Origin: an uncultured Prevotellaceae bacterium
GTDB taxonomy: Bacteria > Bacteroidota > Bacteroidia > Bacteroidales > Bacteroidaceae
Reading direction: 5' to 3'
NCBI GenBank assembly: GCA_900318115.1
Contig: ONJJ01000022.1
Coordinates: 1-51,641 of the forward strand
Length of the DNA: 51,641 nucleotides
In this document: positions 9,901 through 51,533 of the stretch, piece after piece
Numbering within the stretch: the stretch's first letter is position 1
How the letters are laid out: the number at the start of each line of letters is the position of its first letter
Program-made: the position numbers and the translations under genes
The notes under the pieces: model-generated
The model's input: the letters and a program-made list of their open reading frames with translations, nothing else
Told to the model about the DNA's origin: nothing
Database searches by the model: none

Positions 9901-9956
9901 CGGGTCATTCCTATTCTATCGTGACACAATTTTAACCGTTGCCGACACAGGCCACC

Positions 9957-26782: not shown

Positions 26783-26789
26783 CGCCCGA

Positions 26790-26965: not shown

Positions 26966-27007
26966 GAACATCCATCAAAGGCGTCCAGGAACAGACGCAC
27001 GGAGTCA

Positions 27008-29155: not shown

Positions 29156-30236
29156 GTTCTTTCTGATGGCTCTTGCAGCCATCGCCCTGTCGGCCGGCTT
29201 CGTCGCCTGCTCCGACAATGACAACGCCCCCGCCAGCAACTGGCAGAAGTATCAGGATGCCGTGACCCAGAACGTCAAGGCAAACAAGAAACAGAACAAG
29301 GCTATCCTGCTCGTGGCCTTCGGTTCCACTTGGCAGCAGGCCTACGATGCTTTCGACGGCACCGTCAATGCCTACAAGCAGCAGTTCCCCGGCTACGACG
29401 TGTTCCTCTCCTTCTCCTCCGCCATCTGCATCAACCGCGCCGCTGCCGGTGAGAAAGTGGATCCCCGTAACTTCTACGCTCCCAACTTCTGGCTCAACGC
29501 TTTCGCCCAGGAAGGTGTCCGCTACGATGAAATCATCGTGCAGTCCCTGCAGGTCATCCCCGGCGAGGAGTACACGCGCGTCATCAACTACATCAAGGAC
29601 TTCGCCAACAACAGCAACGGCGACCTCGACGATGCTTACCTCTCCAAGGTTGTGCTGAAGCTGGGTGTTCCCCTCCTTCAGGATGCCGAGAAGGACGTCC
29701 CCGAAGTGGCCAAGCAACTCGATGCCCTCTATAAGACACAGGCCGCAGAAGGCGTGGTCGCCTTCATGGGCCACGGCAACCCCGACAGCTACGACACCTA
29801 CAAGGCCAACGTGCGCTACACACAGCTCGAAGAGGCTCTGCAGCTGTACAGCAAGAGCTACTTCGTAGGCACCGTTGACATGATGGATAACTTCAAGACC
29901 GACGTGTACGAGCGCATGCAGGCTGCCGGCATCACCAGCGGCAAAGTCTTCTGCCACCCGCTGATGTCCATCGACGGCGACCACGGCCACAACGACATGG
30001 CTGGCGACGATGACGCCTGGGACAACGGATTCGAGGAGAACGAGGAAGGCGAAGTCGAGGACACCAGTTGGAAGAAGTACTTCAGCCACATGGGCTACAC
30101 CTGCGACAATTCCACCATGATCGAGAAGGGTCTGCTGGAACTGCCCACCGTGCGCAACGTCTGGATGCAGCACACGAAGAACGCCATCGCCGGCGAGGCC
30201 CTTGACTTCTATCACTCCAAGAATCCTGAGGAGTAA
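29142..30236 (+). CDS. cbiK: Exported CbiK-type sirohydrochlorin cobaltochelatase lipoprotein
   Basis: The start is ATG at 29142, giving 364 residues; the upstream frame lies in the receptor gene. A lipoprotein signal is clear: hydrophobic stretch, then GFVACSDN. The chelatase domain (~45-355) has AILLVAFGSTW, FLSFSSAICI, VVAFMGHGNPDS with the catalytic His, and HPLMSIDGDHGHNDMAGDD with a second His. CbiK inserts cobalt into sirohydrochlorin at the start of the anaerobic cobalamin route, a cytoplasmic step. A lipid anchor would place this copy in the periplasm, as known for Desulfovibrio CbiK(P). It overlaps the receptor and is 10 bases before the second receptor, so a transport-linked role is likely. 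Confidence 0.85.
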   Translation: MKKIKFFLMALAAIALSAGFVACSDNDNAPASNWQKYQDAVTQNVKANKKQNKAILLVAFGSTWQQAYDAFDGTVNAYKQQFPGYDVFLSFSSAICINRAAAGEKVDPRNFYAPNFWLNAFAQEGVRYDEIIVQSLQVIPGEEYTRVINYIKDFANNSNGDLDDAYLSKVVLKLGVPLLQDAEKDVPEVAKQLDALYKTQAAEGVVAFMGHGNPDSYDTYKANVRYTQLEEALQLYSKSYFVGTVDMMDNFKTDVYERMQAAGITSGKVFCHPLMSIDGDHGHNDMAGDDDAWDNGFEENEEGEVEDTSWKKYFSHMGYTCDNSTMIEKGLLELPTVRNVWMQHTKNAIAGEALDFYHSKNPEE

Positions 30237-30246
30237 AACAGGACCC

Positions 30247-32484: not shown

Positions 32485-32499
32485 TTCCCTAATTTTCCG

Positions 32500-32507
32500 T
32501 ATCTTTG
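32500..32507 (+). promoter_or_regulatory. -7 box (TATCTTTG) of the cbi fusion operon
   Basis: TATCTTTG fits TAnnTTTG and lies 20 bases before the start at 32528, so the three cbi fusion genes probably have their own short-leader transcript. No riboswitch is visible in that short leader. Confidence 0.6.
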
Positions 32508-32527
32508 TGCCGGAAATAAGACTGCGA

Positions 32528-34024: not shown

Positions 34025-35325
34025 AGTTCATCGTCATTGGCATCACGGACGCTCCGCATCCCTTCTTCCCGCCCCAGGTGACGGACGTCATCCGCCGCGG
34101 TCACCTCTTCTCGGGAGGCCGCAGGCACCACGAACTCGTGGCCGACCTGCTGCCCCATGGTGCCGTGTGGATAGACATCACCGTGCCTGTGGAGGCGGTG
34201 ATAGACACCTATAGACAAAGGAGCCACGAGGGAACCATCATCGTCTTCGCCTCCGGCGACCCCCTCTTCTTCGGCTTCGCCAACACCCTCCGTCGCCTGC
34301 TCCCCGAGGCGGAGCTTCGACTCTTTCCCGCCTTCAACAGCCTCCAGCTGCTGGCCCACCGTCTCGTTCTCCCCTACCACGACCTGCGCGTCGTCTCCCT
34401 CACCGGTCGTCCCTGGCCGGAGTTCGACCGCGCCCTCATCGAGCGAGCGCCCAAGATAGGAGTGCTCACCGACCGCGAGCACACCCCCGCCACCATCGCC
34501 CGCCGAATGCTCGACTACGGCTACGACGACTACACCATGCACGTGGGCGAACACCTCGGTCACCCCACTCTGGAGCGCGTCACCACCCTCTCCCTCGCCG
34601 CGGCCTCCACCCGTGAGTTCACCCTTCCCAACTGTCTCTTGCTCTGCGCTGGCAGTGGCACTGCCACTGCCCGGCCATCCTCTTCCTTCCTCGCCGCCCC
34701 CGCCTCTCCCCTACCCCCTCGTCCCTTCGGCCTCCCCGACTCTTCCTTCGCCCTCCTCGACGGCCGCGAGAAGATGATTACGAAGATGCCCATCCGCCTG
34801 CTCACCCTGCAGGCCCTGGACCTCCCTCGCCGCCGCGTCCTTTGGGACATCGGTTTCTGCACGGGCAGCGTCTCCATCGAAGCCCGCCTGCTCTTCCCCC
34901 ACCTCCGCGTCGTCGCCTTCGAGATTCGTCCTGAGTGCGAAGCCCTCATCCACGAGAATGCCCGTCGCCACGGTGCCCCGGGCATCAAGGTCCGCATGGG
35001 CGACTTCTGTTCCCTATGCTGCAACATTGTTGCAGCCCAAGCACCCACCCCATCCCCCGATGCCATCTTCATCGGCGGCCACGGCGGCAAGCTCAAGGAA
35101 ATCATGACCCAGGCCACCGCCGCCCTCCAACCTGGCGGCGTCATCGTCATGAACAGCGTCACCTCACCCGTCGTGGACCGCCTCACGGACCATCGGCCCG
35201 GCAGCCACCAGCTCTTCGACGAGGCGTGCGCCGAACTCGGTCTCCGGCAGGAGCCTCCCCTCCGCATTCAGCTCGGCGACTACAACCCCATCGAAATCCT
35301 CAAGGCCACCAAGCCCGTCAAATAA
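34021..35325 (+). CDS. Fused CbiE-CbiT (precorrin-6Y C5,15-methyltransferase, decarboxylating; CobL-like)
   Basis: This is a 434-residue protein. Residues 1-~208 are CbiE: FIVIGITDAPHPFFP, FSGGRRHHEL, FASGDPLFFGF. A low-complexity linker (~210-248, Ala/Ser/Pro) follows. Residues ~250-434 are CbiT, with ITKMPIRLLTLQAL, LWDIGFCTGSVSIEA (SAM site), FEIRPECEAL and FIGGHGGKLKEIM. A short extra SLCCNIVAAQAPTPSPD stretch is coded over a 19-bp palindrome in place of the usual loop. The enzyme methylates C5 and C15 and removes a carboxylate. It is translationally coupled to CbiH-CbiC and 8 bases from CbiG-CbiF. Confidence 0.92.
   Translation: MKFIVIGITDAPHPFFPPQVTDVIRRGHLFSGGRRHHELVADLLPHGAVWIDITVPVEAVIDTYRQRSHEGTIIVFASGDPLFFGFANTLRRLLPEAELRLFPAFNSLQLLAHRLVLPYHDLRVVSLTGRPWPEFDRALIERAPKIGVLTDREHTPATIARRMLDYGYDDYTMHVGEHLGHPTLERVTTLSLAAASTREFTLPNCLLLCAGSGTATARPSSSFLAAPASPLPPRPFGLPDSSFALLDGREKMITKMPIRLLTLQALDLPRRRVLWDIGFCTGSVSIEARLLFPHLRVVAFEIRPECEALIHENARRHGAPGIKVRMGDFCSLCCNIVAAQAPTPSPDAIFIGGHGGKLKEIMTQATAALQPGGVIVMNSVTSPVVDRLTDHRPGSHQLFDEACAELGLRQEPPLRIQLGDYNPIEILKATKPVK
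35018..35036. repeat. 19-bp palindrome inside cbiT part
   Basis: GCTGCAACATTGTTGCAGC is a perfect inverted repeat around a single centre base. It codes CCNIVAA. A near copy in the same frame (17 of 19 bases) lies at 46162-46180 in the GH32-like lipoprotein gene. Confidence 0.7.
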
Positions 35326-37829: not shown

Positions 37830-39425
37830 ATGAGGCATGACATTTCTCTTTGCTTGATCATTCTATTGACCCTCACTGCCTGCTCATCTGAGCGGGCACG
37901 CTACCACATCGGCATCTCCCAATGTTCCGAGGACATCTGGCGAGATTGGCAGAATGCGGAGATGAAGCTGGAAGCAAGCCTGCACGAAGACCTGCGGATG
38001 AGTTTCACCACGGCTCACGACGACAGCCGCCGGCAAATCCAGCAAATCGACAGCCTCGTGGCCGCCGGCATAGACCTGCTCATCGTGGCCCCCAACCAGC
38101 TGCAGAATGTCACGCCCGCCATCGACAGAGCCTACGACAGCGGCATTCCAATCATCGTCTTCGAGAGGAAAACCGACTCGAGGAAGTACACCGCCTTCGT
38201 CAGCGCCGACAACTACGAGATGGGCCGACAGATGGGAGAGTACATCGCTGCCACACTCGGAAGACAAGGGAAAATACTGGAGGTGCTTGGTCTCAAAGGC
38301 AGTTCGCCGGCAGAGGAACGCCACCGAGGATTCTGCGATGCCATCAGCACCTATCCCAAGATGCAGATTGCCGCAACGCTGCAGGGCGACTGGACCGAGG
38401 AGAAGGCATACAAGGTGCTCCGCGAATACCCAGGCGATGTCTCCGAATTCGACATCGTCTTCGGACACAACGACCGCACCGCCATGGGAGCCCGCAGGGC
38501 CATAGCTGAACGCATGCCGGGCAGAAAGCTACCACTCTTCTGCGGCATCGATGGGTTGCCGGGCGAGCTGGGTGGCATCCGTCAGGTGCGCGATTCGCTG
38601 CTCACAGCATCATACATCTATCCCACGCGGGGCGACCTACTGCTGCAATTAGCACTGGACATTCTCCAAGGAAAGCCCTACCAGAAAGAGACGCTTCTCA
38701 CATCTGCCCTCGTGACTCATGAGAACGCCAATGTGCTCTACCTTGAGAGCGAGGAGGTCGTGCGACGTTCACAACGGCTGGAACGCATGCACCTGCTGGC
38801 AAACGGCTACCTCCGACAACTTTCCGTGCAACGCACAGTCACCATCCTCGCCTGTGGTGTCATTGCCTTGCTGCTCATTGTCATCGTACTTTTCTATCTC
38901 TATCACCGTGGGCAGGTGAACATCCGACGCGAGCGCGTGCTGAACAACCTATGGAATCTGAGCGTCCAACCCCAAGACACAAAGGACGCCAGTGCCACCA
39001 CAGAAGAAACAGAAAAAGTGGCAGCACAGGCATTACCGCCACATTCCCCCATCACCCCAGAGTCCACAGATTCCCCAAAGCCAGCATCCGCAACAATTCA
39101 GGAAGCCTCCTCACCCTTCATCGCCCACTTCCGCGAAGTCGTGGAGCGAAACATGGAAAACAGTGAGCTCAGCGTGGAAGACTTAGCTGCCGAAATGAAT
39201 CTCAGCCGTGTTCAACTCTACCGAAAGGTGAAAGCCATCACCGGCAGTTCACCTGTGGAACTGCTGCGCACCGCCCGCCTCAACCGGGGTCACCAACTCC
39301 TACTGACTACGGACAAGACCGTTTCCGAAGTGGCCTATGCTGTGGGATTCTCTGCTCCAGCTTACTTTACGAAATGTTTTAAGGAAGAATTTGGCATGGT
39401 ACCCGGAGAGGTCAGAAAATGCTAA
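37830..39425 (+). CDS. Membrane-bound one-component regulator: periplasmic sugar-binding domain, TM helix, AraC domain
   Basis: This is a 531-residue protein. The N-terminus is a signal with lipobox-like LTLTACSS. Residues ~25-310 are a LacI/RbsB-type periplasmic binding fold: IDSLVAAGIDLLIVAPNQ, SGIPIIVFERK, VLGLKGSSPAEERHRGF, IVFGHNDRTAMGARRA. Residues ~334-358 are one membrane helix (VTILACGVIALLLIVIVLFY). A ~75-residue Ser/Pro/Thr linker leads to an AraC domain (~441-531) with LSVEDLAAEMNLSRVQLYRK and VSEVAYAVGFSAPAYFTKCF. The sensor is like that of fructose-sensing hybrid two-component systems such as BT1754, but kinase, ATPase and receiver domains are all absent. It sits directly before a fructan locus, which it probably activates in response to fructose. 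Confidence 0.9.
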   Translation: MRHDISLCLIILLTLTACSSERARYHIGISQCSEDIWRDWQNAEMKLEASLHEDLRMSFTTAHDDSRRQIQQIDSLVAAGIDLLIVAPNQLQNVTPAIDRAYDSGIPIIVFERKTDSRKYTAFVSADNYEMGRQMGEYIAATLGRQGKILEVLGLKGSSPAEERHRGFCDAISTYPKMQIAATLQGDWTEEKAYKVLREYPGDVSEFDIVFGHNDRTAMGARRAIAERMPGRKLPLFCGIDGLPGELGGIRQVRDSLLTASYIYPTRGDLLLQLALDILQGKPYQKETLLTSALVTHENANVLYLESEEVVRRSQRLERMHLLANGYLRQLSVQRTVTILACGVIALLLIVIVLFYLYHRGQVNIRRERVLNNLWNLSVQPQDTKDASATTEETEKVAAQALPPHSPITPESTDSPKPASATIQEASSPFIAHFREVVERNMENSELSVEDLAAEMNLSRVQLYRKVKAITGSSPVELLRTARLNRGHQLLLTTDKTVSEVAYAVGFSAPAYFTKCFKEEFGMVPGEVRKC

Positions 39426-39487: not shown

Positions 39488-39554
39488 AAGAATCGTTCAT
39501 TCCTTTGCATTTATGTTGCATCGAAACAAATCTTCAAGGGGATGAACGATTCTT
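39488..39554. promoter_or_regulatory. Inverted repeat upstream of susC, candidate operator or hairpin
   Basis: AAGAATCGTTCATTCC (39488-39503) and GGGATGAACGATTCTT (39539-39554) pair over 15 of 16 positions with 35 bases between. They lie between the regulator gene and SusC, ahead of a weak -7 like box (GACTTTTG at 39581-39588). An operator for the upstream regulator or an RNA leader hairpin are both possible. Confidence 0.5.
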
Positions 39555-39633
39555 TATGCACACATTATTAGAATAATACGACTTTTGCAGCGTCAAAAAG
39601 CGTTTAATCCATTAACTAACATCTCAAAAAACA

Positions 39634-42600
39634 ATGCAAAAGCTAAGACGATTGTTGATGAGCCTCGCGCTCATTCTTGCTGGCACTACACTTTGGGCGC
39701 AGCAAGTAGACGTCCACGGCACCGTGCTCGACGACCTCGGTGAAGGCCTGCCCGGTGCCACAGTAAAGGAAAAAGCCAACTCCAACAACGGCACGCTGAC
39801 CGACATCGACGGCCACTTCACGTTGAAGGTGGAGAAGGGCGCCACGCTGGTCATCTCCTTCATGGGCTTCAACACCCAGGAGGTGGAGGCCAAGGACGGC
39901 ATGACGGTCACTATGGGCGAGAATGTCGCCCAGATGAACGAGCTCGTCGTGACAGGTTATCAGGTGCAGCGCAAGGCCGACTTGACGGGCGCTGTCTCGG
40001 TAGTCAGCGTTGATGAACTGGCCAAGCAGAACGAGAACAACCCCATCAAGGCTATGCAAGGTCGAGTGCCCGGCATGAATATCTCGGCCGATGGTAATCC
40101 CTCTGGAGCCGCCACGGTTCGTATCCGTGGTATCGGCACGCTGAACAACAACGACCCTCTCTACATCATCGACGGCGTGCCCACCAAGGCCGGTATGCAT
40201 GAGCTGAACGGCAACGACATCGAGTCGATCCAGGTGTTGAAGGATGCTGCTTCAGCTTCTATCTATGGTAGCCGTGCTGCAAACGGCGTCGTCATCATTA
40301 CCACCAAGCGCGGCAAGGAAGGCAAGGTGAAGATCGACTTCGACGCCAGCGTGGCCGTACAGACTTATGCCAACCGCATGGAGGTGCTCAATGCCAAGCA
40401 GTTCGGGCAGGTGATGTGGCAGGGCTACGTCAACGATGGTCTCGACCCCAACATGAACGGCCTCGGCTATCACTACGACTGGACCTACAACCAGCAGGGC
40501 GTGCCTGTGCTCAACGGCATCACGATGAGCAAGTACCTCGACGCCGCCGGCACCACTCCCGCTGCCGACACCGACTGGTTCGACCAGACCACGCGCACGG
40601 GCGTCGTGCAGAAATATGATGTCTCGCTGAGCAACGGTTCGGAGAAGGGCAGCAGCTTCTTCTCGCTCGGTTACTACAAGAACCTCGGCATCATCAAGGA
40701 CTCCGATTTCAGCCGCTTCTCTGCCCGCATGAACAGCGACTACAAACTCCTGAAGATTAACGATCGCGACATCATCACCGTAGGCGAGCACTTCACCGTC
40801 AACCGCACCAGCGAGGTGCAGGCTCCTGGCGGATTCCTCGAGAACGTCCTTCAGTTCAATCCCTCGCTGCCCGTCTATACTACCGATGGCAGCTTCGCAG
40901 GTCCCGTCGGCGGCTATCCCGACCGCGAAAACCCGCTGGCACGCCTTTCGCGCAATGCAGACAATCGCTACACATACTGGCGCATGTTCGGCGATGCCTT
41001 CATCAACATCAACCCCTTCAAGAACTTCAACATCAAGAGCACCTTCGGTCTCGACTACGCTCAGAAGAAGCAGCGCATCTTCACCTATCCTATCACCGAA
41101 GGCACCGTGGCCAACTCCACCAATGCTGTCGAGCCCAAGCAGGAGCACTGGACAAAGTGGATGTGGAACGCCGTGGCCAGCTACAGCTTCGAGGCTGGTA
41201 AGCACCACGTCGACGCCCTGGCAGGTGTGGAGCTGAACCGTGAGGACGACAGCTGGTTCAGCGGCAAGGCCTATGACTTCGCAGTGCTCACTCCTTCTTA
41301 TATGTGGCCCGACGCAGCCGTGGGCGAGGCCGAAGCTTACGGCGGTGCCGGCGGCTTCTCGCTCGTATCGTTCTTTGCCAAGGCCAACTACAACTTCGAC
41401 AACCGCTACCTGGCCAGCGTCACCGTCCGCCACGACGGCAGCTCGCGCTTCGGCAAGAACAATCGCTATGGTACCTTCCCCTCGTTCAGCGCAGGTTGGC
41501 GCATCAGCCAGGAGAAGTTCATGGAGAACGTAGGCTGGCTCGACGACCTGAAGCTGCGCGCCAGCTGGGGACGTACGGGTAACCAGGAGATCGACAACAT
41601 CGCACGCTACACGCTCTACGTGAGCAACTACGGCGAGGCAGGCTTCGGCGGCCAGAGCTACGGCACCAGCTACGACATCGCAGGCACCAACGGCGGCCAG
41701 CAGCTGGCCAGCGGCTTCAAGCGCAACCAGCTCGGCAACGACAACCTGAAGTGGGAAACCACCACACAGACGAACATCGGCTTCGACTTCGGTCTCCTGC
41801 GCAACGCCCTCTATGGTTCATTCGAGTGGTACTACAAGAAGACCACCGACATCCTTGTCTACATGCCCGGCATCGGCGTCATGGGCGAAGGAGCCAGCCA
41901 ATGGATCAACGCTGGCGAGATGGAGAACAAGGGTATCGAGTTCAACGTAGGTTATCGCGGCAAGGTTGGCGACTTCAGCTACGACCTCGCCGGAAACATA
42001 GGCACCTATCGCAACAAGATTACCAAGCTGCCCGAGACTCTCGCTGCCAACGGCACCTTCGGCGGCAACGGCGTCGAGAGCGTCGTAGGTCATCCCATGG
42101 GCGCACAGGTAGGCTACGTCTACGACGGCATCTTCAAGAGCCAGAACGAAATCGACGACCACGCCACCCAGAACGGAGCAGGCCTCGGACGCATCCGCTG
42201 GAAGGACCTCAACGAGGACGGTATCATCAACGAGAAGGATCAAAAGTGGATCTACTCGCCCGTGCCCGACTTCACCTGGGGCCTGAACGTCTATCTGCAG
42301 TACAAGGATTGGGACTTCACCATGTTCTGGCAGGGCGTGCAGGGCGTCGATGTCATCAGCGACCTCAAGCGCGAGACCGACCTCTGGAGCGGTCTTAACA
42401 TCTCCAACCTCAACAAAGGCCAGCGCCTGCTCGATGCCTGGAACCCCGCCAACAACGGCTCCAACATCCCCGCCATCAGCGTGATGGACAACAACAACGA
42501 GAAGCGCGTCAGCTCCTATTTCGTCGAAAACGGCAGCTTCGCCAAGCTGCGCACCGTGCAACTCGGCTACAACCTCCCTTCGAAAGCCCTCGAGCGGATC

Positions 42601-42747
42601 CACATGCAGCGTCTGCGCCTCTATCTCTCGGCTCAGAACCTCTTCACGATCAAGAGCAAGAGCTTCACGGGCGTCGATCCAGAGAACGCCAACTTTGGCT
42701 ATCCTATCCCCGTCAACGTGACCTTCGGAATCAATGTCTCACTCTAA
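39634..42747 (+). CDS. SusC-like TonB-dependent oligosaccharide transporter
   Basis: This is a 1037-residue protein with a signal peptide ending at TTLWAQ. Residues ~22-100 are the carboxypeptidase-regulatory-like domain (VHGTVLDDLGEGLPGATV, LVISFMGF). The plug follows (MNELVVTGYQVQRKADLTGA, RGIGTLNNNDPLYIIDGVP, IESIQVLKDAASASIYGSRA), then a large barrel ending NVTFGINVSL. SusC proteins import oligosaccharides with SusD as a lid. The GH32 enzymes and fructokinase downstream indicate fructan (levan or inulin) oligosaccharides. It is the first gene of the locus. Confidence 0.96.
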   Translation: MQKLRRLLMSLALILAGTTLWAQQVDVHGTVLDDLGEGLPGATVKEKANSNNGTLTDIDGHFTLKVEKGATLVISFMGFNTQEVEAKDGMTVTMGENVAQMNELVVTGYQVQRKADLTGAVSVVSVDELAKQNENNPIKAMQGRVPGMNISADGNPSGAATVRIRGIGTLNNNDPLYIIDGVPTKAGMHELNGNDIESIQVLKDAASASIYGSRAANGVVIITTKRGKEGKVKIDFDASVAVQTYANRMEVLNAKQFGQVMWQGYVNDGLDPNMNGLGYHYDWTYNQQGVPVLNGITMSKYLDAAGTTPAADTDWFDQTTRTGVVQKYDVSLSNGSEKGSSFFSLGYYKNLGIIKDSDFSRFSARMNSDYKLLKINDRDIITVGEHFTVNRTSEVQAPGGFLENVLQFNPSLPVYTTDGSFAGPVGGYPDRENPLARLSRNADNRYTYWRMFGDAFININPFKNFNIKSTFGLDYAQKKQRIFTYPITEGTVANSTNAVEPKQEHWTKWMWNAVASYSFEAGKHHVDALAGVELNREDDSWFSGKAYDFAVLTPSYMWPDAAVGEAEAYGGAGGFSLVSFFAKANYNFDNRYLASVTVRHDGSSRFGKNNRYGTFPSFSAGWRISQEKFMENVGWLDDLKLRASWGRTGNQEIDNIARYTLYVSNYGEAGFGGQSYGTSYDIAGTNGGQQLASGFKRNQLGNDNLKWETTTQTNIGFDFGLLRNALYGSFEWYYKKTTDILVYMPGIGVMGEGASQWINAGEMENKGIEFNVGYRGKVGDFSYDLAGNIGTYRNKITKLPETLAANGTFGGNGVESVVGHPMGAQVGYVYDGIFKSQNEIDDHATQNGAGLGRIRWKDLNEDGIINEKDQKWIYSPVPDFTWGLNVYLQYKDWDFTMFWQGVQGVDVISDLKRETDLWSGLNISNLNKGQRLLDAWNPANNGSNIPAISVMDNNNEKRVSSYFVENGSFAKLRTVQLGYNLPSKALERIHMQRLRLYLSAQNLFTIKSKSFTGVDPENANFGYPIPVNVTFGINVSL

Positions 42748-42798: not shown

Positions 42799-44532
42799 AT
42801 GAAAGCAAATATTATAAAGAATCTCTTGCTGTGCGTAAGTTGTGGCATTGCCGCAACCTTGACCTCCTGCTCCGACTTCCTCGACGAGCATACCCCGCAG
42901 GGCACGCTCAGCGACGAGCAGGTGAAAACGCCTGAGAACGCCGAGGCCATGGTAGTCTCTGCCTATGCCATCTTCACTACCGCAGAGGACATCAACTCCT
43001 CCTTCTCCATGTGGAACTTCGACGTCCGCTCCGATGACGCCTACAAAGGCGGCAGCGGCACTAGCGACGGCGACGTCTTCCATCAGCTCGAGGTGCAGCA
43101 GGGCGTGCTGACCACCAACTGGAACATCAACGACATGTGGGTTCGCCTCTACAACAGCCTCTCGCGCGTCAACAGCGCCATCGCCCTCTTGAACGAGAGC
43201 GACTATGGAATGAAGACTCAGCGCCTGGCCGAGATGAAGTTCCTCCGTGCCTACGGACACTTCCTCCTGAAGCGCCTCTACAAGCACATCCCCTTCGTCA
43301 TCAATGAGAACCTGACCTACGACGAGTACAACACCCTCTCCAACACCACCTACACCAACGATGAGGGCTGGCAGCTCATTATCGACGACCTCATGGAAGC
43401 TTTCAACACCCTGCCCGAGACTCAGGCCGACAAAGGGCGCCCCACCAAGGCCGCCGCTGCTGCCTTCCTCGCTAAGGTCTATCTCTACAAAGCCTACCGT
43501 CAGGACGACGCTGCCACCAACCAGGTGACCAGCATCAACGAGGCCGACCTGCAGAAGGTAGTCGAGTTCACAGCCCCCGCCCTCTACGCAAACTATGGCC
43601 TCGAAGACGACTTCCACAACAACTTCCGCCCCGAGGAGGAGTATGAAAACGGCATCGAGAGCATCTGGGCCATTCAGTACTCGCGCAACGACGGCAGCAC
43701 CTACGGCAACCTCAACTGGAGCTACGGCCTCATACCGCCCAACATCCCCGGCGCTACCGACGGCGGCTGCGACTTCTACAAGCCCTCGCAGAACCTCGTC
43801 AACGCCTACCGCACTGGCAGCGACGGCCTGCCACTGCTCGACACCTACAACCAGCGCAACTACGACAAGGCCGCCGACAATGCCGACCCACGTCTGTTCC
43901 TGACCGTAGGCATCCCCGGACTCCCCTATATGTTCAACCCCGCCTACATGATGGAGGAGACCAGCATCTGGAGCCGCTCCAACGGTCTCTATGGCTACAA
44001 CGTCTCGCTCAAGCAGAACGTCGACCCCGCCCTCATCGACCAGTACCTCATCAAGGGCAGCTACTGGGCAAGCTCCATGAACCGCATCGTCTTCCGCTAT
44101 GCCGACGTACTGCTGATGCGCGCCGAGGCCGAGGCTCAGCTGGGCAACACCACCGAGGCCATCCAACTCGTCAACCAGCTCCGCACACGTGCCGCACAGA
44201 GCACACAGATGATTGCCAGCTACCCCAACCGCTACGGCGTCAAGATGTTCATCTCCAACTATCGTGGCAGCTACTCCAAGGCTGACGCCCTGCGCATCGT
44301 AAAGATGGAGCGCCGCCTGGAGATGGGCATGGAGTGCGAGCGCTTCTTCGACCTCGTACGCTGGGGCGAAGCCGCCACCGTGCTCAACAAGTACTACGCC
44401 GAGGAGATCGACAACTGCGCCATCTACACTGCAGCCCACTTCACGGCCAACCGCGACGAGTACCTGCCCATCCCCTTCGAGCAGCTCTCTGCCTCCAACG
44501 GCCACTACACCCAGAACATAGGCAACTGGTAA
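42799..44532 (+). CDS. SusD-like surface glycan-binding lipoprotein
   Basis: This is a 577-residue lipoprotein (TLTSCSDFLDEHTPQGTL), lying 51 bases after SusC. RagB/SusD features are LRAYGHFLLKRLYKHIPFV, PTKAAAAAFLAKVYLYKA, VFRYADVLLMRAEAEAQLG, and the C-terminal ERRLEMGMECERFFDLVRWG and YLPIPFEQL. It sits on the outer membrane as the lid of the SusC channel and binds the glycan. Downstream 44541-44613 is an AT-rich tandem repeat. Confidence 0.95.
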   Translation: MKANIIKNLLLCVSCGIAATLTSCSDFLDEHTPQGTLSDEQVKTPENAEAMVVSAYAIFTTAEDINSSFSMWNFDVRSDDAYKGGSGTSDGDVFHQLEVQQGVLTTNWNINDMWVRLYNSLSRVNSAIALLNESDYGMKTQRLAEMKFLRAYGHFLLKRLYKHIPFVINENLTYDEYNTLSNTTYTNDEGWQLIIDDLMEAFNTLPETQADKGRPTKAAAAAFLAKVYLYKAYRQDDAATNQVTSINEADLQKVVEFTAPALYANYGLEDDFHNNFRPEEEYENGIESIWAIQYSRNDGSTYGNLNWSYGLIPPNIPGATDGGCDFYKPSQNLVNAYRTGSDGLPLLDTYNQRNYDKAADNADPRLFLTVGIPGLPYMFNPAYMMEETSIWSRSNGLYGYNVSLKQNVDPALIDQYLIKGSYWASSMNRIVFRYADVLLMRAEAEAQLGNTTEAIQLVNQLRTRAAQSTQMIASYPNRYGVKMFISNYRGSYSKADALRIVKMERRLEMGMECERFFDLVRWGEAATVLNKYYAEEIDNCAIYTAAHFTANRDEYLPIPFEQLSASNGHYTQNIGNW

Positions 44533-44622: not shown

Positions 44623-46035
44623 ATGAGAACCATATATAAGATTCTTCTCTTAGGTTGTGTTTGTTGCTGTATCGCAGCAACCACATTCCTCGCCGCCTGC
44701 TCCTCCGACAACGTCAGCGACCTCCGGCTCTCGGGCGACTGCCGTGTCGAGGCCCTCGCACTCGACGACTACGAAGGCAACATCGACCTTCCTTCGCGAA
44801 CCATCACCGTGCGTCTGCCCGAAGTCTATGAGACATCGGCCATGCAACTGACACGCCTCACCCTCTCCGACGGCGCCGCCTGCAACTTCCAGCAGGGCGA
44901 TCGCCTCAATATGAACGCCGCACAAGTGCTCCGCGTCAGCAACGGCGACACCTACCTCGACTGGACTCTCCGCGTGCTCCACGACGAGGCGCGCATCACC
45001 GCCTTCACCATTAACGACATCTACCAGGGCACCATCGACCAGACGGCCAAGACGATCACCGTCTACGTGCCGGCCACGGAGAACATCACCGCACTCGTGC
45101 CCACCATTGTCTACAGCCAGAACGCCACCATCACCCCCGCTTCAGGGCAGGCACAGGACTTCTCGCAGCCCGTCACCTATAAAGTGAAGAACAATTCTGC
45201 CGAAAGCACCTACACCGTCACCGTCATCGCCATCGACAAGCCCAAGGCACTCTTCGTGGGCGCAGCCCCCAGCATGAACGACCTCGATGCCGAGGCCAAG
45301 ACCGCCTGCGAGTGGATGCTCGCCAACGTGCCCGGTTCGCTCTACGCCAGCTTCGCCGACCTCGAGGCCAACGCCGTTGATATGAGCGAGTGCAAGGTCA
45401 TCTGGTGGCACTTCCATGTCGACGGAGGTGTCGACGGTCACGATGTCTTCGTGGCCAAGGCCCCCGAGGCGCTTGCTGCCAAGAACCAGCTGCGCCAGTT
45501 CTATGAGAACGGCGGCGCACTCTTCCTGACGCGCTACGCCGTCAACCTGCCCTCGTTCATCGGAGCTACGGGCGACGACGAATGGACCACGCCCAACAAC
45601 TGCTGGGGCCAGGACGAAGCTGCTGCCGAGCTCTGCGGCGGCCCCTGGACGTTCCGCATCTTCGACGGCCAGAACGCTCACCCGCTCTTCCAAGGCCTCG
45701 TCGCCGGTGACAATCCGCAGGAAGTCTATTGCACCGATGCCGGCTACCACATCACCAACTCCACCGCCCAGTACCACATCGGCACCGACTGGGGCGACTA
45801 TCCCGACTACGCCGCCTGGACCTCGCGCACGGGCGCTACCGTCCTCGGCGTGGGTGGCGACGGAGCCATTGTGGCTTGGGAATATCCCGCCCACGACGGT
45901 AAGGGAGGCATCGTCTGCATCGGCTCCGGCTGCTACGACTGGTACTCCTACACCTACGAGGCCGGCTACACCGAGAACTTCCACCGCAACATCGCCACGA
46001 TGACAAAGAACGCCCTCAATCATCTTTCAAAGTAA
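44623..46035 (+). CDS. Surface glycan-binding lipoprotein (DUF4960-like), fructan locus
   Basis: This is a 470-residue lipoprotein (TTFLAACSSDN). Two Ig-like repeats lead the protein (~30-110 and ~118-200), each ending with a DUF5018-type strand such as YTVTVIAI. The C-terminal ~270 residues form one domain with KALFVGAAPSMNDLDAEAK, IWWHFHVDGG, GGALFLTRYAV and IVAWEYPAHDGKGGIVCIGS, the type seen beside SusD in Bacteroides fructan loci (DUF4960 family, as in BT1761). Its position after SusD fits a second surface glycan-binding protein that helps capture polysaccharide. No catalytic motif is seen. Confidence 0.75.
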   Translation: MRTIYKILLLGCVCCCIAATTFLAACSSDNVSDLRLSGDCRVEALALDDYEGNIDLPSRTITVRLPEVYETSAMQLTRLTLSDGAACNFQQGDRLNMNAAQVLRVSNGDTYLDWTLRVLHDEARITAFTINDIYQGTIDQTAKTITVYVPATENITALVPTIVYSQNATITPASGQAQDFSQPVTYKVKNNSAESTYTVTVIAIDKPKALFVGAAPSMNDLDAEAKTACEWMLANVPGSLYASFADLEANAVDMSECKVIWWHFHVDGGVDGHDVFVAKAPEALAAKNQLRQFYENGGALFLTRYAVNLPSFIGATGDDEWTTPNNCWGQDEAAAELCGGPWTFRIFDGQNAHPLFQGLVAGDNPQEVYCTDAGYHITNSTAQYHIGTDWGDYPDYAAWTSRTGATVLGVGGDGAIVAWEYPAHDGKGGIVCIGSGCYDWYSYTYEAGYTENFHRNIATMTKNALNHLSK

Positions 46036-46121: not shown

Positions 46122-47708
46122 ATGAAAAAGATGTTTAATATATTCTGCGCAGGCCTCTTATGCTGCAATATGGTTGCAGCCCTCACCGCCTGTTCCGAAG
46201 ACAACTATGGCGACGATCCTAAGCCTTGGGCCTCAACCACTACAGCCTTCGCTAGCACCGACGATGCCGCCTTCCTCACCTACTACAAGCCCGCCATCGG
46301 GCGCGTAGGCGACCCCATGCCCTTCTACGATCAGAAGGCGGGCGAATTCAAGGTCCTCTATCTGCAGGAGTACGACAACAACGGCGCCTGCTACCATCCC
46401 TTCTGGGGACTCGCCACTAAGGACGGAGCCACCTACCAGCCCCTCGGCGAGGTGCTGCCCACAGGCTCCTCCACCGCTCAGCAGGACGCTGCCCTCGGCA
46501 CCGGCTGTGCCGTCTACAACGAGGCCGACGGTCTCTACTACATCTACTACACCGGCCACAACCCGCTGCTGCCCAACCGCGAGGTGGTCATGCGCGCCAC
46601 GTCGCCCGACTTCAAGACGTGGACGAAGGATGCCACGTGGAGCCTCAAGGGCGTCGACTACGGCTACGCCGCTTCCGACTTCCGCGACCCGCAGGTCTTC
46701 AAGGCCGACGACGGCCTCTGGCACATGGTCATCTCCTCCAACCTCCGCTTTGCCGACTTCAAGTCGAGTGACCTCAAGACGTGGCAGCACGTAGGCTCGT
46801 TCAATATGGTGTGGGACCGCATGTGCGAATGCCCCGACATCTTCAAGATGGGCAACTACTGGTACTTCGTCTATAGCGAAGGCTACCGTGCACCTTGGAG
46901 CCGCAAGGTCAAGTACATGATGGCCACTTCTTTCGAGGGTCTCAAGGCTTGCTTTGGCGACCCGGGAGCCAACTGGCCAAAGGACGGTCATGAGGGCGTG
47001 CTCGACAGCCGAGCCTTCTACGCCGCCAAGACAGCTTCGAACGGCACCGACCGCTTCATCTGGGGATGGTGCCCGCAACGCATCGGCACCACCATCGACG
47101 AGCGCAACATCAACGTGGGCGCCGAGAGCGAACCTGCATGGTCAGGTGCTCTCGTCTGCCACCGCATCATCCAACACGAGGATGGCACCCTCACCCTCGG
47201 TGCTGTGCCTGCTATGGCCGCCAAGTACAACAAGCAGCAGGAGGTCAAGGTGATGGCCAGCAACGGTTATGCCGACGGCAAGCTCTCCGGCAACGATGCC
47301 TATGTCCTCTACCCCCGTCTCGGCACCGCCAACCACATCACCTTCACCGTGCAGACCTCCAACAACTGGGACCGCTTCGGCATCAGCTTCGTCCGCGGCA
47401 CAGATAGCGAGAAGTACTACACCCTCGTCGTCAACCCCGAGGATGAGAACCACCGCAAGGTCAACTTCGAGCAGGAAGGCAAGGCTGGCAAGGGATTCAT
47501 CGAGGGCATCGACGGCTACTGGTTCGAGCGCCCCGCCGACAACAAGTACAACATCGACATCTACACGGACAACAGCGTCCTCGTGCTCTACATCAACGAT
47601 GTCTGCGCCTACACACAGCGCATCTACGGCATCCAGAAGAACTGCTGGAGCATTAACAACTACGGCGGCAACATCACCGTCACCGACGTGAAAGTTGCCC
47701 AGCAGTAA
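46122..47708 (+). CDS. GH32-like lipoprotein (fructan hydrolase with altered nucleophile motif)
   Basis: This is a 528-residue protein with a lipobox (AALTACSEDN). A five-bladed propeller covers ~50-350. D64 in GRVGDPMPFY takes the place of the usual NDPNG nucleophile motif. D189 in FRDPQVF and E236 in CECPDIF match the GH32 transition-state Asp and acid/base. The C-terminal ~170 residues are a beta-sandwich (NHITFTVQTSNNWDRFGISF). Anchored at the cell surface it could cut polymer fructan, as endo-levanases do, or bind it. The NDPNG change makes activity uncertain. Confidence 0.8.
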   Translation: MKKMFNIFCAGLLCCNMVAALTACSEDNYGDDPKPWASTTTAFASTDDAAFLTYYKPAIGRVGDPMPFYDQKAGEFKVLYLQEYDNNGACYHPFWGLATKDGATYQPLGEVLPTGSSTAQQDAALGTGCAVYNEADGLYYIYYTGHNPLLPNREVVMRATSPDFKTWTKDATWSLKGVDYGYAASDFRDPQVFKADDGLWHMVISSNLRFADFKSSDLKTWQHVGSFNMVWDRMCECPDIFKMGNYWYFVYSEGYRAPWSRKVKYMMATSFEGLKACFGDPGANWPKDGHEGVLDSRAFYAAKTASNGTDRFIWGWCPQRIGTTIDERNINVGAESEPAWSGALVCHRIIQHEDGTLTLGAVPAMAAKYNKQQEVKVMASNGYADGKLSGNDAYVLYPRLGTANHITFTVQTSNNWDRFGISFVRGTDSEKYYTLVVNPEDENHRKVNFEQEGKAGKGFIEGIDGYWFERPADNKYNIDIYTDNSVLVLYINDVCAYTQRIYGIQKNCWSINNYGGNITVTDVKVAQQ

Positions 47709-47737: not shown

Positions 47738-49438
47738 ATGAACATTTCCAAATGTTTTATCCTGTCTGTAGCTCTCACGGCACTCCCTTTCGGGAGTCGC
47801 TGTGAGGCGCAGGGACTGACACCGCAGGCTTGCGAGCAAACCATCGTGACACCAGCATCGCAAGGCCGCTACCTGTGGCTTCCCATTCAGGAATCGGTGC
47901 CCGAAGGTAAGGTGCAAGTCATCCGAAACGGTATGCTCTTGATGGAGCAGAACATTCGCATGGCACGTGAGCGGGTGGATTATTTCGTGGCCTTGGACCT
48001 GAAGCCCTATCAGGCAAGTGGTTCTTTCAAGGTTTGCGTGCAGAACGTGCCCACAGGCAGCATCTGTTTCTCTAAACTCGTGCAGAACGATGACCCCGAC
48101 TACGCGTTTATCGACGAGAAGTATCGTCCGCTCTACCACCAGACACCGCGTCGAGGATGGATGAACGACCCGAACGGGATGTTCTACAAGGATGGCGTGT
48201 GGCACCTCTTCTATCAGTACAACCCCTATGGTTCCATGTGGGGCAATATGCATTGGGGACATTCCGCATCTACCGACCTTGTCCGTTGGAAGGACGAAGG
48301 CGTGGCACTTGCCCCCGACGCATGGGGAACGATGTTCAGTGGTTCCTGTGTTGTCGATGAAAACAACACGGCAGGCTTCGGCCGCGGTGCCGTCATCGCT
48401 ATGTACACTTCGAGCCGTCCCACGCCCTTTGGTGGCGACGTGCAGGCACAATGTTTAGCCTACAGCACCGATGGCGGCAAGACGTTCACGAAGTATGAGG
48501 GCAACCCCGTGCTGACTGCTGAAGAAAAGGATTTCCGCGACCCGAATATGTTCTGGAACGAGGACATCAACGCCTGGAACCTTATCCTGGCCGTGGGGCA
48601 GGAGATGCGCATCTATTCGTCGCCCAACCTCAAGGACTGGAAGGAAGAGAGTCGCTTCGGTCTCGGCTATGGCAACCACGACGGCGTCTGGGAGTGCCCG
48701 GATCTGTTCAAACTGAACGGGAAATGGGTCCTCGTCTGCAACATCAACCCCGGCGGCCCCTTCGGCGGCTCGGCCACGCAGTACTTCGTGGGCGATTTCG
48801 ACGGCCATAAGTTTACCTGCGACTCCGCACCGCAGGTCACCAAGTGGATGGACTGGGGTAAGGACCACTACGCTACCGTCTCCTTCTGGGGTGCCCATGA
48901 AGGACGTCGCACCGTGCTGGCATGGATGAGCAACTGGCAGTACGCCAACGACGTCCCGACCATGCAGTACCGCTCGGCCAACTCCATCGCCCGCGACCTC
49001 GGCCTTTTCCAGGACGGCGGAGAATGGTACGTCAGCGTGAAGCCCGCACCCGAGATGCTGGCCGCCCGCGGCAAGAAAGTGAAGAACCCCACCGAAGCCT
49101 GCGAGATGGTCGTCGACCTGAAAGGCTCGGCCACAATCACGCTCTCCAACGCCAAGGGCGAGCAAGTCGTCATGACCTACGACGACGATGCGCGCACCTT
49201 CAGCATGGATCGTACGCAGAGCGGCAACGTCGCCTTTAGCGAGGCCTTCCCCTGCACCACCGTGGCGCCCACGCACGGACGCCTGAAGCAGCTGCGCATC
49301 TTCATCGACCGCTGCTCCATCGAGGCCTTCGATGCCGACGGGCGCGTGGCCATGACTAACCTCGTCTTCCCCGCAGAGCCTTACAACACCGTGAAGGTCA
49401 AGGGCGGAAAGGCCACCATCTATCAGATTAACAATTAG
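47738..49438 (+). CDS. GH32 fructanase/invertase (exo-acting, secreted)
   Basis: This is a 566-residue protein with a signal peptide ending near RCEAQ. An N-terminal beta-sandwich (~25-125, DUF4980 type) precedes the propeller (~130-430): nucleophile D144 in GWMNDPNG, transition-state D268 in FRDPNMFW, acid/base E319 in VWECPDLF. The C-terminal sandwich (~440-566) ends in RCSIEAFDADGRVAMTNLVF. It would release fructose from fructo-oligosaccharides in the periplasm. It is 29 bases after the GH32-like lipoprotein gene and precedes the transporter and kinase for the product. Confidence 0.93.
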   Translation: MNISKCFILSVALTALPFGSRCEAQGLTPQACEQTIVTPASQGRYLWLPIQESVPEGKVQVIRNGMLLMEQNIRMARERVDYFVALDLKPYQASGSFKVCVQNVPTGSICFSKLVQNDDPDYAFIDEKYRPLYHQTPRRGWMNDPNGMFYKDGVWHLFYQYNPYGSMWGNMHWGHSASTDLVRWKDEGVALAPDAWGTMFSGSCVVDENNTAGFGRGAVIAMYTSSRPTPFGGDVQAQCLAYSTDGGKTFTKYEGNPVLTAEEKDFRDPNMFWNEDINAWNLILAVGQEMRIYSSPNLKDWKEESRFGLGYGNHDGVWECPDLFKLNGKWVLVCNINPGGPFGGSATQYFVGDFDGHKFTCDSAPQVTKWMDWGKDHYATVSFWGAHEGRRTVLAWMSNWQYANDVPTMQYRSANSIARDLGLFQDGGEWYVSVKPAPEMLAARGKKVKNPTEACEMVVDLKGSATITLSNAKGEQVVMTYDDDARTFSMDRTQSGNVAFSEAFPCTTVAPTHGRLKQLRIFIDRCSIEAFDADGRVAMTNLVFPAEPYNTVKVKGGKATIYQINN

Positions 49439-49480: not shown

Positions 49481-50644
49481 ATGAATAACAAGACAAGTAA
49501 ATTGGCAATCATCCCCGTGATGCTCTGCTTCTTCTGCATGGGCTTCGTGGACTTGGTGGGCATCGCCTCCAACTATGTGAAAGAAGACCTCGGACTGACC
49601 GACAGCGTGGCCAACATCTTCCCGTCGCTCGTCTTCTTCTGGTTCCTCATCTTCAGCGTGCCCACAGGCATGCTGATGAACAAGATCGGTCGCAAGCAGA
49701 CCGTGCTGCTCTCGCTGCTGGTCACCGTCGTCTCGCTCGTGCTGCCCCTCTTCGGCGAGTCGTTCGGCGTGATGCTCGTGGCCTTCTCGCTGCTCGGCAT
49801 CGGCAACGCGCTGATGCAGACATCGCTGAACCCGCTCGTCTCCACCGTCATGGGCGGCGGTAACCTGGCCTCCACGCTCACATTCGGACAGTTCGTCAAG
49901 GCCATCGCCTCGTTCTCGGCCCCCTATCTGGCCATGTGGGGCGCCACGCAGGTCATCCCCGAACTGGGCCTGAACTGGCGCGTGCTCTTCGCCATCTTCC
50001 TCGTCGTAGGCGCGCTCTCCACGCTGTGGCTGTGGCTGACGCCTATTGAGGAAGCGCCCATCGAGGGCAAGCCCTCCACGTTCGTCGAGTGCTTCAAGCT
50101 CCTCGGCACCCCCATCGTCCTCCTCTCGTTCCTCGGCATCATGTGCCATGTGGGCATCGACGTGGGCACCAACACCACCGCCCCCAAGATCCTGATGGAG
50201 CGCCTGGGCATGACGCTCAACGAAGCCGCCTTCGCCACCTCGCTCTACTTCATCTTCCGCACCATCGGCTGCCTCACGGGCTCCTTCTTCCTGCGCGTGT
50301 TGCGCATGCGCACGTTCTTCATCATCTCCGTCTGCATGATGGCCCTGTCGATGTGCGGCCTCTATTTCGGCCAGACCAAGCTGGTGCTCTACGCGGCCAT
50401 CGCCCTCGTGGGCTACGGCAACAGCAACGTCTTCTCGATGTGCTTCGCCACCGCCCTCGAATCCATGCCCGAGAAGCAGAACGAGGTCAGCGGCCTCATG
50501 ATCATGGGCCTCTTCGGCGGCACCGTGTTCCCGCTGCTCATGGGCGTCATGAGCGATGCCATGGGTCAGGCCGGCGCTGTGCTCGTCATGGCCATAGGCG
50601 TCATCTACCTGTTCACCTATATCAAACAACTCAAAACTGCATAA
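49481..50644 (+). CDS. MFS sugar transporter (FucP-like), likely fructose importer
   Basis: This is a 387-residue inner-membrane protein with about 12 helices. Family marks are FFCMGFVDLVGIASNYVKED in the first helix and loop, LMNKIGRKQT in loop 2-3, GIGNALMQTSLNPLVSTVMG and GVMSDAMGQAG. FucP-type porters move a sugar with protons. Between a fructan-cleaving GH32 and a fructokinase, fructose is the expected cargo (compare BT1758 in the known levan locus). The fructokinase start follows 4 bases after its stop. Confidence 0.88.
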   Translation: MNNKTSKLAIIPVMLCFFCMGFVDLVGIASNYVKEDLGLTDSVANIFPSLVFFWFLIFSVPTGMLMNKIGRKQTVLLSLLVTVVSLVLPLFGESFGVMLVAFSLLGIGNALMQTSLNPLVSTVMGGGNLASTLTFGQFVKAIASFSAPYLAMWGATQVIPELGLNWRVLFAIFLVVGALSTLWLWLTPIEEAPIEGKPSTFVECFKLLGTPIVLLSFLGIMCHVGIDVGTNTTAPKILMERLGMTLNEAAFATSLYFIFRTIGCLTGSFFLRVLRMRTFFIISVCMMALSMCGLYFGQTKLVLYAAIALVGYGNSNVFSMCFATALESMPEKQNEVSGLMIMGLFGGTVFPLLMGVMSDAMGQAGAVLVMAIGVIYLFTYIKQLKTA

Positions 50645-50648: not shown

Positions 50649-51533
50649 ATGAACGAAAAACGTTATGTCGTAGGCCTGGGCGAAGTCCTGTGGGACGTTC
50701 TGCCCGAAGGCAAGAAGCTCGGCGGCGCACCTGCCAACTTCGCTTACCACGCTGGTCAGTTCCTCGGTTCGGACAACACCATCGCCATCAGCGCTCTCGG
50801 CGAGGACAAGCTGGCCGACGAGACCATCGAAGCCCTGCGCGAGCACAACCTCAACGACCTGCTGCCCCGCGTGCCCTACCCCACCGGCACCGTGCAGGTG
50901 ACGCTGGCCGAAGGTGGTATCCCCACGTACGACATCAAGGAGAACGTGGCTTGGGACAACATTCCCTTCGACGATGATATCGCTGCCATTGCACGCTCGT
51001 GCCGTGCCGTATGCTTCGGCTCGCTCGCACAGCGCAACATCGTAAGCCGCACCACCATCCAGAAGTTCCTCGACGCCACGCCCGACGACTGCCTCAAGAT
51101 CTTCGACATTAACCTGCGCCAGCAGTTCTACACCAAGGAGATCATCCAGGAGAGCATACGCCGCTGCAACATCCTCAAGATCAACGACGAGGAACTCGTG
51201 CTCATCGGCCGCATGTTCGGCTATCCCGGCCTCGACATCGAGAACAAGTGCTGGCTCATACTGGGCAAGTACAACCTCGACATGCTCGTGCTCACCTGCG
51301 GCACCAACGGCTCCTACGTCTTCACCCCCGGGGCCGTCTCGTTCCAGGAGACGCCGAAAGTCACCGTGGCCGACACCGTAGGCGCCGGCGACTCGTTCAC
51401 AGGCTCCTTCGTAGGTAGCATCCTGGGTGGCAAGAGCGTGGCCGAGGCCCACCGCACTGCCGTACGCGTCAGCGCATACGTCTGCACGCAGAACGGTGCC
51501 ATGCCCGCAGTGCCCGAGGAACTGAAAGCCTGA
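50649..51533 (+). CDS. PfkB-family fructokinase
   Basis: This is a 294-residue cytoplasmic kinase. It has GLGEVLWDVLPEGKKLGGAP and NFAYH at the start (first PfkB signature), FDINLRQQFY, and the second signature DTVGAGDSFTGSF with the catalytic Asp. It would make fructose-6-phosphate from the imported fructose, ending the fructan pathway. It is the last gene of the locus, and a T-rich tract and dispersed repeat with hairpin follow. Confidence 0.93.
   Translation: MNEKRYVVGLGEVLWDVLPEGKKLGGAPANFAYHAGQFLGSDNTIAISALGEDKLADETIEALREHNLNDLLPRVPYPTGTVQVTLAEGGIPTYDIKENVAWDNIPFDDDIAAIARSCRAVCFGSLAQRNIVSRTTIQKFLDATPDDCLKIFDINLRQQFYTKEIIQESIRRCNILKINDEELVLIGRMFGYPGLDIENKCWLILGKYNLDMLVLTCGTNGSYVFTPGAVSFQETPKVTVADTVGAGDSFTGSFVGSILGGKSVAEAHRTAVRVSAYVCTQNGAMPAVPEELKA

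Follow-up and report, generated by a model that had tools for sequence, protein, structure and literature searches.

One of the known systems closest to the regulator considered here is BT1754 (HTCS_Fru) of Bacteroides thetaiotaomicron, a hybrid two-component system (HTCS) with which it has in common the fold and sequence of the sensor, an AraC-type output and a fructan PUL. BT1754 contains HisKA, HATPase and receiver domains, as described in excerpts of PMC3404733 and PMC3878776, whereas the present protein has none of these. In most HTCSs the receiver (REC) appears to suppress the DNA-binding domain (DBD), and a SHIP motif is part of the inhibitory REC-DBD interface (excerpts of PMC11253607). 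HTCS motifs have an average spacing of 21 bp, while SusR sites lie 67 or 77 bp apart (excerpts of PMC3878776).

Regulators that act from the membrane without a kinase are also known. The transmembrane transcription regulators (TTRs) combine a membrane sensor and a DBD in one chain, as does the protein described here, and the term AraC has 0 occurrences in the main text of PMC10269533. That paper mentions a two-component ancestry of TTRs as no more than a possibility, and no series of intermediates appears in its excerpts. The same source describes Rsp of Neisseria gonorrhoeae, in which the receptor part of PilS is joined to the DBD of PilR in a kinase-less chimera similar to ours, but Rsp is a repressor of pilA whereas an activator is proposed here; the two are set side by side by description. 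SusR of B. thetaiotaomicron is likewise a membrane PUL regulator with a periplasmic sugar-binding part, but its DBD is unlike other families (excerpts of PMC3878776), and this comparison too is by description.

Set against these systems, our protein has the COG1879/Peripla_BP sensor of an HTCS and an AraC-type DBD (HTH_18) with predicted half-sites 21 bp apart, close to the HTCS value and not at the SusR distances, and it has neither kinase core nor receiver. A TM helix and a DBD in one chain without a kinase core agree with a TTR. The initial annotation had drawn a parallel to ToxR and CadC. The DNA-binding domain of the latter proteins is an OmpR-type winged helix, so the parallel is only a working analogy for signalling and does not extend to the DBD, which here belongs to another family (HTH_18/AraC). 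The suggestion of a distinct class is not supported in the form given, since membrane one-component regulators, including Rsp, are already recognised (PMC10269533) and SusR is an older Bacteroides example (PMC3878776), both sources being cited from excerpts.

A kinase-less regulator at a fructan locus

The window, which is the whole stretch of 51,641 nucleotides that was analysed, contains an open reading frame with an ATG start and no internal stops that encodes the regulator. Its parts are as follows.

37830..39425, + strand: kinase-less one-component regulator of 531 aa, sensor, TM helix, linker and AraC domain (ORF, Pfam, 73-sequence family alignment)
37830..37883, + strand: predicted signal peptide, residues 1-18, ending in a lipobox-like Leu-Thr-Ala-Cys (translation, Cys column)
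37899..38738, + strand: periplasmic sugar-binding sensor, residues 24-303, BT1754/2x7x-like (Pfam, phmmer, Foldseek, conserved columns)
38739..38954, + strand: predicted continuous helix, residues 304-375, with membrane segment at about 336-358, nt 38835-38903 (AlphaFold2, hydropathy)
38934..38954, + strand: RVLNNLW, residues 369-375, possible deletion scar resembling the post-receiver RVLKNLW of protein L054 (alignment)
38955..39113, + strand: mostly disordered linker, residues 376-428 (AlphaFold2 pLDDT)
39114..39419, + strand: AraC-type DNA-binding domain, residues 429-530 (Pfam HTH_18, identity to relatives)

Pfam assigns Peripla_BP_4 to residues 37-282 (E 2.4e-40) and HTH_18 to residues 452-530 (E 5.7e-22). 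Hydropathy gives a single outstanding stretch, with 19-residue windows above 1.6 starting only at 331-345 and a peak at 337-355. In an AlphaFold2 model based on 37 sequences (mean pLDDT 82) the helix 304-375 is unbroken, residues 376-402 and 405-426 have a pLDDT below 50, and the DBD starts at residue 429. Judged from this model the linker would comprise about residues 359-428, some 70 residues.

None of the five Pfam families listed at E 0.05 for this protein is a kinase or receiver family. HMMs of our own, built from full-length HTCS relatives and run without filters at a cut-off of 1e-3, gave 0 matches to HisKA, HATPase and REC in 73 short proteins including that of the window, the best E values being 0.28, 1.7 and 0.047, respectively. 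There is also no kinase or receiver among the 25 commonest Pfam families of these 73 proteins, a listing that excludes 50 rarer families each found in at most two members. The architecture initially proposed, with sensor, one TM helix, linker and AraC domain in a single frame and the phosphorelay absent, thus agrees with ORF, Pfam and hydropathy data and with the HMM searches. A kinase hidden in the linker was sought with Pfam and with the unfiltered HMMs and was not found.

The sensor resembles that of BT1754, and the comparison with fructan HTCSs that had been made holds: the nearest solved structure is the fructose-binding domain of BT1754 (2x7x), which has rank 1 in Foldseek (E 7.6e-31, 41% identity) and is also the closest by sequence (phmmer 3e-76). 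Trp37, Arg38, Arg164, Asp241 and Thr266 are identical in all 73 short proteins, and Arg113 (one gap) and Asn214 are each retained in 72. By analogy with the ribose-binding protein, these seven residues probably line the pocket. Glu112 corresponds to Asp in BT1754. Kinship and pocket point to fructose as the ligand; homology is no proof of this, and an oligosaccharide is possible. The lipobox cysteine column is near-invariant or invariant in the family alignments, and also invariant in 21 full HTCSs (C19). A strict lipobox pattern, which we judge too strict, is present in 46 of 72 short, 14 of 17 intermediate and 19 of 21 full proteins and in 7 of 18 proteins of the outside set, with L022 and L064 omitted because their 5′ ends are cut; several relatives outside the family have no lipobox-like cysteine. 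The sensor may therefore be held by an N-terminal lipid anchor beside the TM helix.

The regulator ends 208 bp before the PUL, in which the following genes were recognized.

39634..42747, + strand: SusC-like transporter (TIGR04056, E 1.7e-270)
42799..44532, + strand: SusD-like lipoprotein (PF07980)
44623..46035, + strand: DUF4960 protein (PF16324)
46122..47708, + strand: GH32, BT1760-like (PF16346, PF00251)
47738..49438, + strand: GH32 (PF00251)
49481..50644, + strand: MFS transporter (PF07690)
50649..51533, + strand: PfkB sugar kinase, fructokinase-like (PF00294; NF006957 far below its cutoff)

By its predicted products this is a fructan set, and the earlier assignment to a fructan locus holds. 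In related loci longer than 6 kb, of which many are shortened by contig ends, a SusC relative was found near 52 of 59 other short regulators and a GH32 relative near 47; the corresponding numbers are 13 and 8 for 15 intermediate loci, and 3 and 9 for 11 full loci. Elsewhere in the window a cobalamin riboswitch (RF00174, 82.7 bits, 26776-26972) precedes a gene set (27008-35325) in which CbiK is flanked by two TonB receptors and two corrin-pathway ORFs follow.

Occurrence of the short form

The sensor gave 149 matches in 135 of 399 genomes of the family. By size these are 37 proteins of 508-635 aa, 98 of at least 883 aa, 10 of 700-850 aa and 4 below 400 aa; the 700-850 aa group consists of 8 intermediates, described below, and two full proteins that are cut short (L123, L150). 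By form this gives 37 short, 98 full-size, 8 intermediate and 6 cut matches, with domains checked in all 37 short and in 20 of the 98 full-size ones. The 37 short matches have open frames without stops. In the genus of the window, eight genomes have nine matches, all of short size (522-635 aa). A deletion private to one assembly was considered as a possible artefact and is ruled out by this recurrence in 37 family matches, one of which (L183) is in a genome assembled as a single contig. The Bacteroides framing of the initial annotation does not fit: those relatives that carry names are MAGs assigned to Prevotellaceae, Bacteroidaceae or Bacteroidales, most of them ruminant-derived according to their titles, and not Bacteroides proper. 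Identical duplicates (L098-L100, L106, L111, L115) were removed.

Two further proteins, L060 (8995-10080, 362 aa) and L063 (8950-10032, 361 aa), consist of sensor and TM segment and end after the membrane helix. No partner was found for either, and there is no SusC or GH32 match within their loci; genes downstream of L063 look by eye like those of a mobile element.

Intermediates without the ATPase domain

Besides short and full proteins there is a third group (INTERMEDIATE) of 17 distinct proteins of 702-835 aa, which contain sensor, TM segment, HisKA, receiver and AraC domains but no ATPase domain. The set includes L064, which is cut at its start, and leaves out an 18th candidate, L123, which is a full protein cut short. 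One member, L137, comes from a single-contig genome. According to our own HMMs, with which Pfam agrees, HATPase is present in 22 of 22 full, 0 of 17 intermediate and 0 of 73 short proteins, and HisKA and REC in 22 of 22, 17 of 17 and 0 of 73, respectively.

Pattern searches show that the H-box histidine and the receiver's phospho-acceptor aspartate and lysine are retained in all 17 intermediates and the receiver acidic pair in 16. The SHIP motif takes the form TSHIPV or TSHVPV in 13 members of this set of 17. The residue following the H-box histidine is Glu or Asp in 22 of 22 full proteins, but in the intermediates it is Glu in 6, Gln in 8 and Arg in 3. This loss of the acidic residue in 11 of 17 proteins is as expected if the HisKA hairpin now serves as a dimer and spacer module. 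The 'DK' motif of the REC-DBD interface (excerpts of PMC11253607) was dropped as a marker because 11 of the 22 full proteins, many of them cut at locus ends, do not show the DBD pattern. An AlphaFold2 model of the ATPase-less L053 was built from 9 sequences and is too poor to rely on (mean pLDDT 67, pTM 0.28); it places helices at 303-409 and 418-446, followed by a receiver-like stretch that starts at 481 and by the AraC domain.

The retained histidine and receiver aspartate could mean that a kinase acts in trans. It could do so as part of a full HTCS that forms a heterodimer with the regulator, or it could cross-phosphorylate the intermediates. L059 would suit this, since a separate SBP_bac_3-HisKA-HATPase gene (6094-7785), a possible phosphate donor in trans, lies directly upstream of its ATPase-less HisKA-receiver-AraC regulator (7815-9995). 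We nevertheless regard a kinase in trans as improbable. No phospho-acceptor domain is present in the short form, just 4 of the 74 loci with short or intermediate regulators have a HATPase ORF nearby, and the genome of the window has no second protein with a BT1754-like sensor at E 1e-30, and hence no kinase-bearing paralogue, although this genome is 87% complete and a partner kinase may be missing from the assembly. In another locus, L065, two ATPase-less regulators stand in tandem (4354-6585, 7083-9287) before one susC-susD-DUF4960 set.

A predicted operator that follows the regulator

Between the stop codon of the regulator and susC two candidate elements were found.

39492..39550, + strand: predicted operator, ATCGTTCAT, then ATGTTGCAT 21 bp on, then ATGAACGAT (pattern search, relatives)
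39580..39587, + strand: GACTTTTG, -7-box-like element of the susC promoter (fixed spacing in relatives)

The operator has the layout ATCGTTCAT-N12-ATGTTGCAT-N20-ATGAACGAT, with half-sites 1 and 2 at a distance of 21 bp. Its outer pair at this spacing occurs at a single place in the 3.33 Mb genome (control pattern 0), and the operator pattern was not found in 100 shuffles of the window. A strict test demanded CGTTCA and TGAACG at 27-28 or 48-49 bp. Within the window's clade, 37 of 44 intergenic regions next to short regulators and 4 of 6 next to intermediates pass it (41 of 50 together), as against 2 of 23 regions of other regulators and 1 of 15000 mononucleotide shuffles. Where SusC is at least 70% identical the operator is present in 19 of 24 clade regions versus 1 of 12 others, and where SusC is below 55% in 18 of 22 versus 1 of 7; the Fisher values of 7e-5 and 0.0026 are only indicative, because the sequences are related and not independent events. 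As the contrast exists at both high and low SusC identity, the operator follows the clade of the regulator and not the transporter. The full HTCSs L155 and L156 have an operator that is degenerate but recognizable by eye and fails the strict test. The locus L143 (G362:C9, regulator 5713-7260) has SusC, SusD and GH32 proteins that are 98%, 96% and 95% identical to those of the window, respectively, while the sensor is 38% identical; its intergenic region has lost the left half-site and retained the right one. We read this as a probable exchange of regulator and operator in front of a near-identical PUL. The intergenic regions of L028 and L041 contain two operator copies, at about 500 and 143 bp before susC.

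The Bacteroides -7 consensus is TAnnTTTG, from which GACTTTTG differs by one mismatch. Of the 41 loci with the operator, 35 have their first -7-like box, by a lenient pattern, 30-32 bp below it; 3 have the first box at another distance and 3 have no such box. Shuffled sequences have it at 30-32 bp in 106 of 20500 cases (0.5%). Relative to this box, the predicted operator would be at the place of an activator touching polymerase. That the gene has an effect on the adjacent locus, as the initial annotation had supposed, is favoured by this predicted, regulator-specific operator before susC.

The operator also bears on the idea that the short protein is a decayed, inactive regulator. Domains have been lost, and decay does appear to occur among relatives, where L067 (8986-10543, two overlapping frames) and L182 (4595-5482, a sensor piece only) look broken. 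Against this, the 37 family frames are open, columns of both sensor and DBD are conserved and the operator is kept, which makes inactivity the least plausible reading of all.

Linkers and deletion scars

The linkers of the short form are 24-99 residues long (median 56) and have a median net charge of -6 over the 73 proteins (range -15 to -1, window -3). Their type differs by lineage: a Trp motif followed by disorder as in the window, 'RRRHRLERQAF', an H-box scar, long helices, or very short linkers. Such linkers, that of the window's protein being disordered in the model, could allow regulated proteolysis: ligand binding would lead to a cut in the linker, and the released AraC domain would then work in the cytosol. 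We find this very unlikely, because linker length and composition vary with lineage, no shared motif was seen by eye and no protease is present among the PUL proteins scanned with Pfam.

According to the classical ToxR-like view, the protein could be a monomer without sugar that becomes active by ligand-induced dimerization. The loss of HisKA, the known dimer module of HTCSs, and the paired half-sites of the operator are in line with this. However, the linkers of L132-L135, L138, L140-L142, L145, L127 and L152 are long helices, heptad-like by eye, that would hold a constant dimer, and the retention of HisKA in the intermediates also fits a standing dimer. We thus consider induced dimerization a rather unlikely option, although one to be taken seriously.

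In a second lineage the linker appears to preserve a clear scar of the deletion. The linkers of L139, L143, L146 and L148 start like the HisKA domain of the intermediates related to them, a resemblance that extends to the phospho-acceptor region, with local alignment scores of 48-62 versus 33-42 for the maxima of 20 shuffles; an example is 'NEEQTLFYTDAS' in L143 versus 'NEEQTLFYTNAS' in L137. In L143 and L148 the linker continues as post-receiver-like 'RKLHDIFD', for which 0 of 100 shuffles were as good by HMM; this half was not seen by HMM in L139 and L146. The linker of L149 reads 'SRRKLRNLFDD'. In the window's own protein a scar is suggestive only. RVLNNLW resembles RVLKNLW of L054, but local alignment gives a score of 48, with a mean of 35 and a maximum of 47 for shuffled sequences, while by HMM the score is about zero and 2 of 100 shuffles are as good. 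Within its clade just 5 of 54 linkers reach 0.02 or less by this HMM, and in 35 of the 54 the best linker match outside the juxtamembrane part is the post-receiver helix.

Direction and number of origins

For the direction of change, 198 genomes of the order were searched with a cut-off of 1e-40, which gave 24 matches, including the window, in 20 genomes. Frames of 922-994 aa make up 18 of the 23 non-window matches, and 17 of these 18 come from outside the family. Inspection of 16 of the 18 outside genomes with a match revealed 13 full HTCSs, two proteins with other outputs (L179, L180) and one short form, in a genome (G508) that has both this protein (L166) and a broken copy (L182). In L179 (G453) the BT1754-like sensor is fused to an output part that, by eye, resembles a phosphatase of the SpoIIE/PP2C type. 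Of the outside relatives with AraC output that were examined, 13 of 14 are full kinases. Since the outside relatives are mostly full HTCSs, the kinase form is the likely ancestor and the short form likely derived from it.

A sensor tree was rooted on seven outside relatives, with 23 near-copies or awkward rows omitted. The DBD tree omits nine near-copies, the full proteins cut at the C-terminus, L123 and L150, and both trees omit L179, L180, L182 and L183. The sensor tree rejects a single short clade (AU p 7e-5) and has 14 changes of form, of which at least 10 are forced. The DBD tree, which has few columns and a bootstrap that had not settled, also rejects it (AU p 6e-5, or 0.005 without four long rows) and has 5 changes, at least 3 forced. 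Label changes on these trees cannot distinguish loss from regain, and the direction of loss rests on the outside relatives. Because the DBD tree groups the chassis better, the mixing of short and intermediate forms in the sensor tree would at least partly be due to exchange of sensors, which we read as swapping between chassis. Many independent deletions inside the window's clade, as suggested by the sensor tree, were rejected as an explanation, the DBD tree needing only 5 changes. A Trp early in the linker is common to 47 of 54 short proteins of this clade, and together with the DBD tree this leads us to read the data as sensor swapping with few origins of the short form, apparently about three or more.

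Instead of internal loss from an HTCS, a binding protein could have been fused de novo to an unrelated AraC regulator, and the weakly scar-like junction of the window's own protein leaves some room for this. The DBD, however, is up to 69% identical to those of intermediates and up to 62% (79 aa, L116) to those of full HTCSs of the same sensor family, versus at most 40% to five other AraC-type proteins of its own genome. The intermediates also have the window's operator and another lineage has the clear scar. De novo fusion is highly improbable in view of this, and descent from an HTCS is retained below.

Proposed mechanism

In view of the above, the protein is probably an activator of the fructan operon next to it that stays tethered to the membrane and works without phosphorylation, and it probably descends from a BT1754-type HTCS that lost its kinase. 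Fructose freed in the periplasm would bind to the BT1754-like sensor domain, and closure of this domain would be relayed across the membrane through the one continuous helix (304-375), probably in a pre-existing dimer. The two AraC domains, on their short flexible linkers, could then occupy half-sites 21 bp apart, just in front of the susC promoter, and bring in RNA polymerase, with no phosphate involved. As the protein has no receiver, either its geometry or the acidic linker must keep it silent in the absence of sugar. In the proposed descent the ATPase domain would have been the first part of the HTCS to go, followed by HisKA and receiver, with sensor, DBD and operator kept; we infer this order also for the window's own lineage.

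A wider hypothesis, which we put forward tentatively and hold to be somewhat less likely than not to apply in full, is that HTCSs carry a latent phosphorylation-free route via helix and linker which has repeatedly taken over in Prevotella-like lineages. The ATPase domain would go first and HisKA and receiver, by then a dimer and spacer module, next, so that a one-component system would arise again from a two-component one, while sensor, chassis and PUL are exchanged and the operator stays with the chassis.

Implications

Neither a kinase-loss series nor an ATPase-less HTCS was seen described in the open-licence PMC literature. Within that literature, and as far as seen, the ATPase-less HTCS class, kinase loss with living intermediates and an operator staying with the chassis are new. 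The initial annotation, made from the sequence alone, could not reveal the intermediates, the evidence of several origins, the sensor swapping and the operator, which are the important points.

The trend toward kinase loss may be wider, since the window's genome also encodes three apparently kinase-less proteins (L003, L004 and L006, on contigs C45, C65 and C42) that join an HTCS-type sensor to an AraC domain, with a Reg_prop beta-propeller instead of a binding protein; two of them also have Y_Y_Y. No kinase was found in the whole 694-aa frame of L004, in the 615 of 773 aa read for L003 or in 628 of 904 aa for L006. The genome further contains a TPR-HTH_18 protein and one clear full HTCS (L002). 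The inulin PUL of S. copri has been reported to have no contiguous HTCS and to have a homologue upstream of unclear role (excerpts of PMC11784079), and a kinase-less regulator is worth seeking in loci such as this one.

The short proteins have lost the receiver brake on the DBD, and another must serve. One- and two-component systems are usually discussed in terms of evolution from simple to complex. Here the change seems to have run from complex to simple, and on more than one occasion; living species still represent its steps, and sensor and operator have hardly altered. As one sensor family is found on full, on ATPase-less and on kinase-less chassis, it can be asked directly what the phosphorelay contributes.
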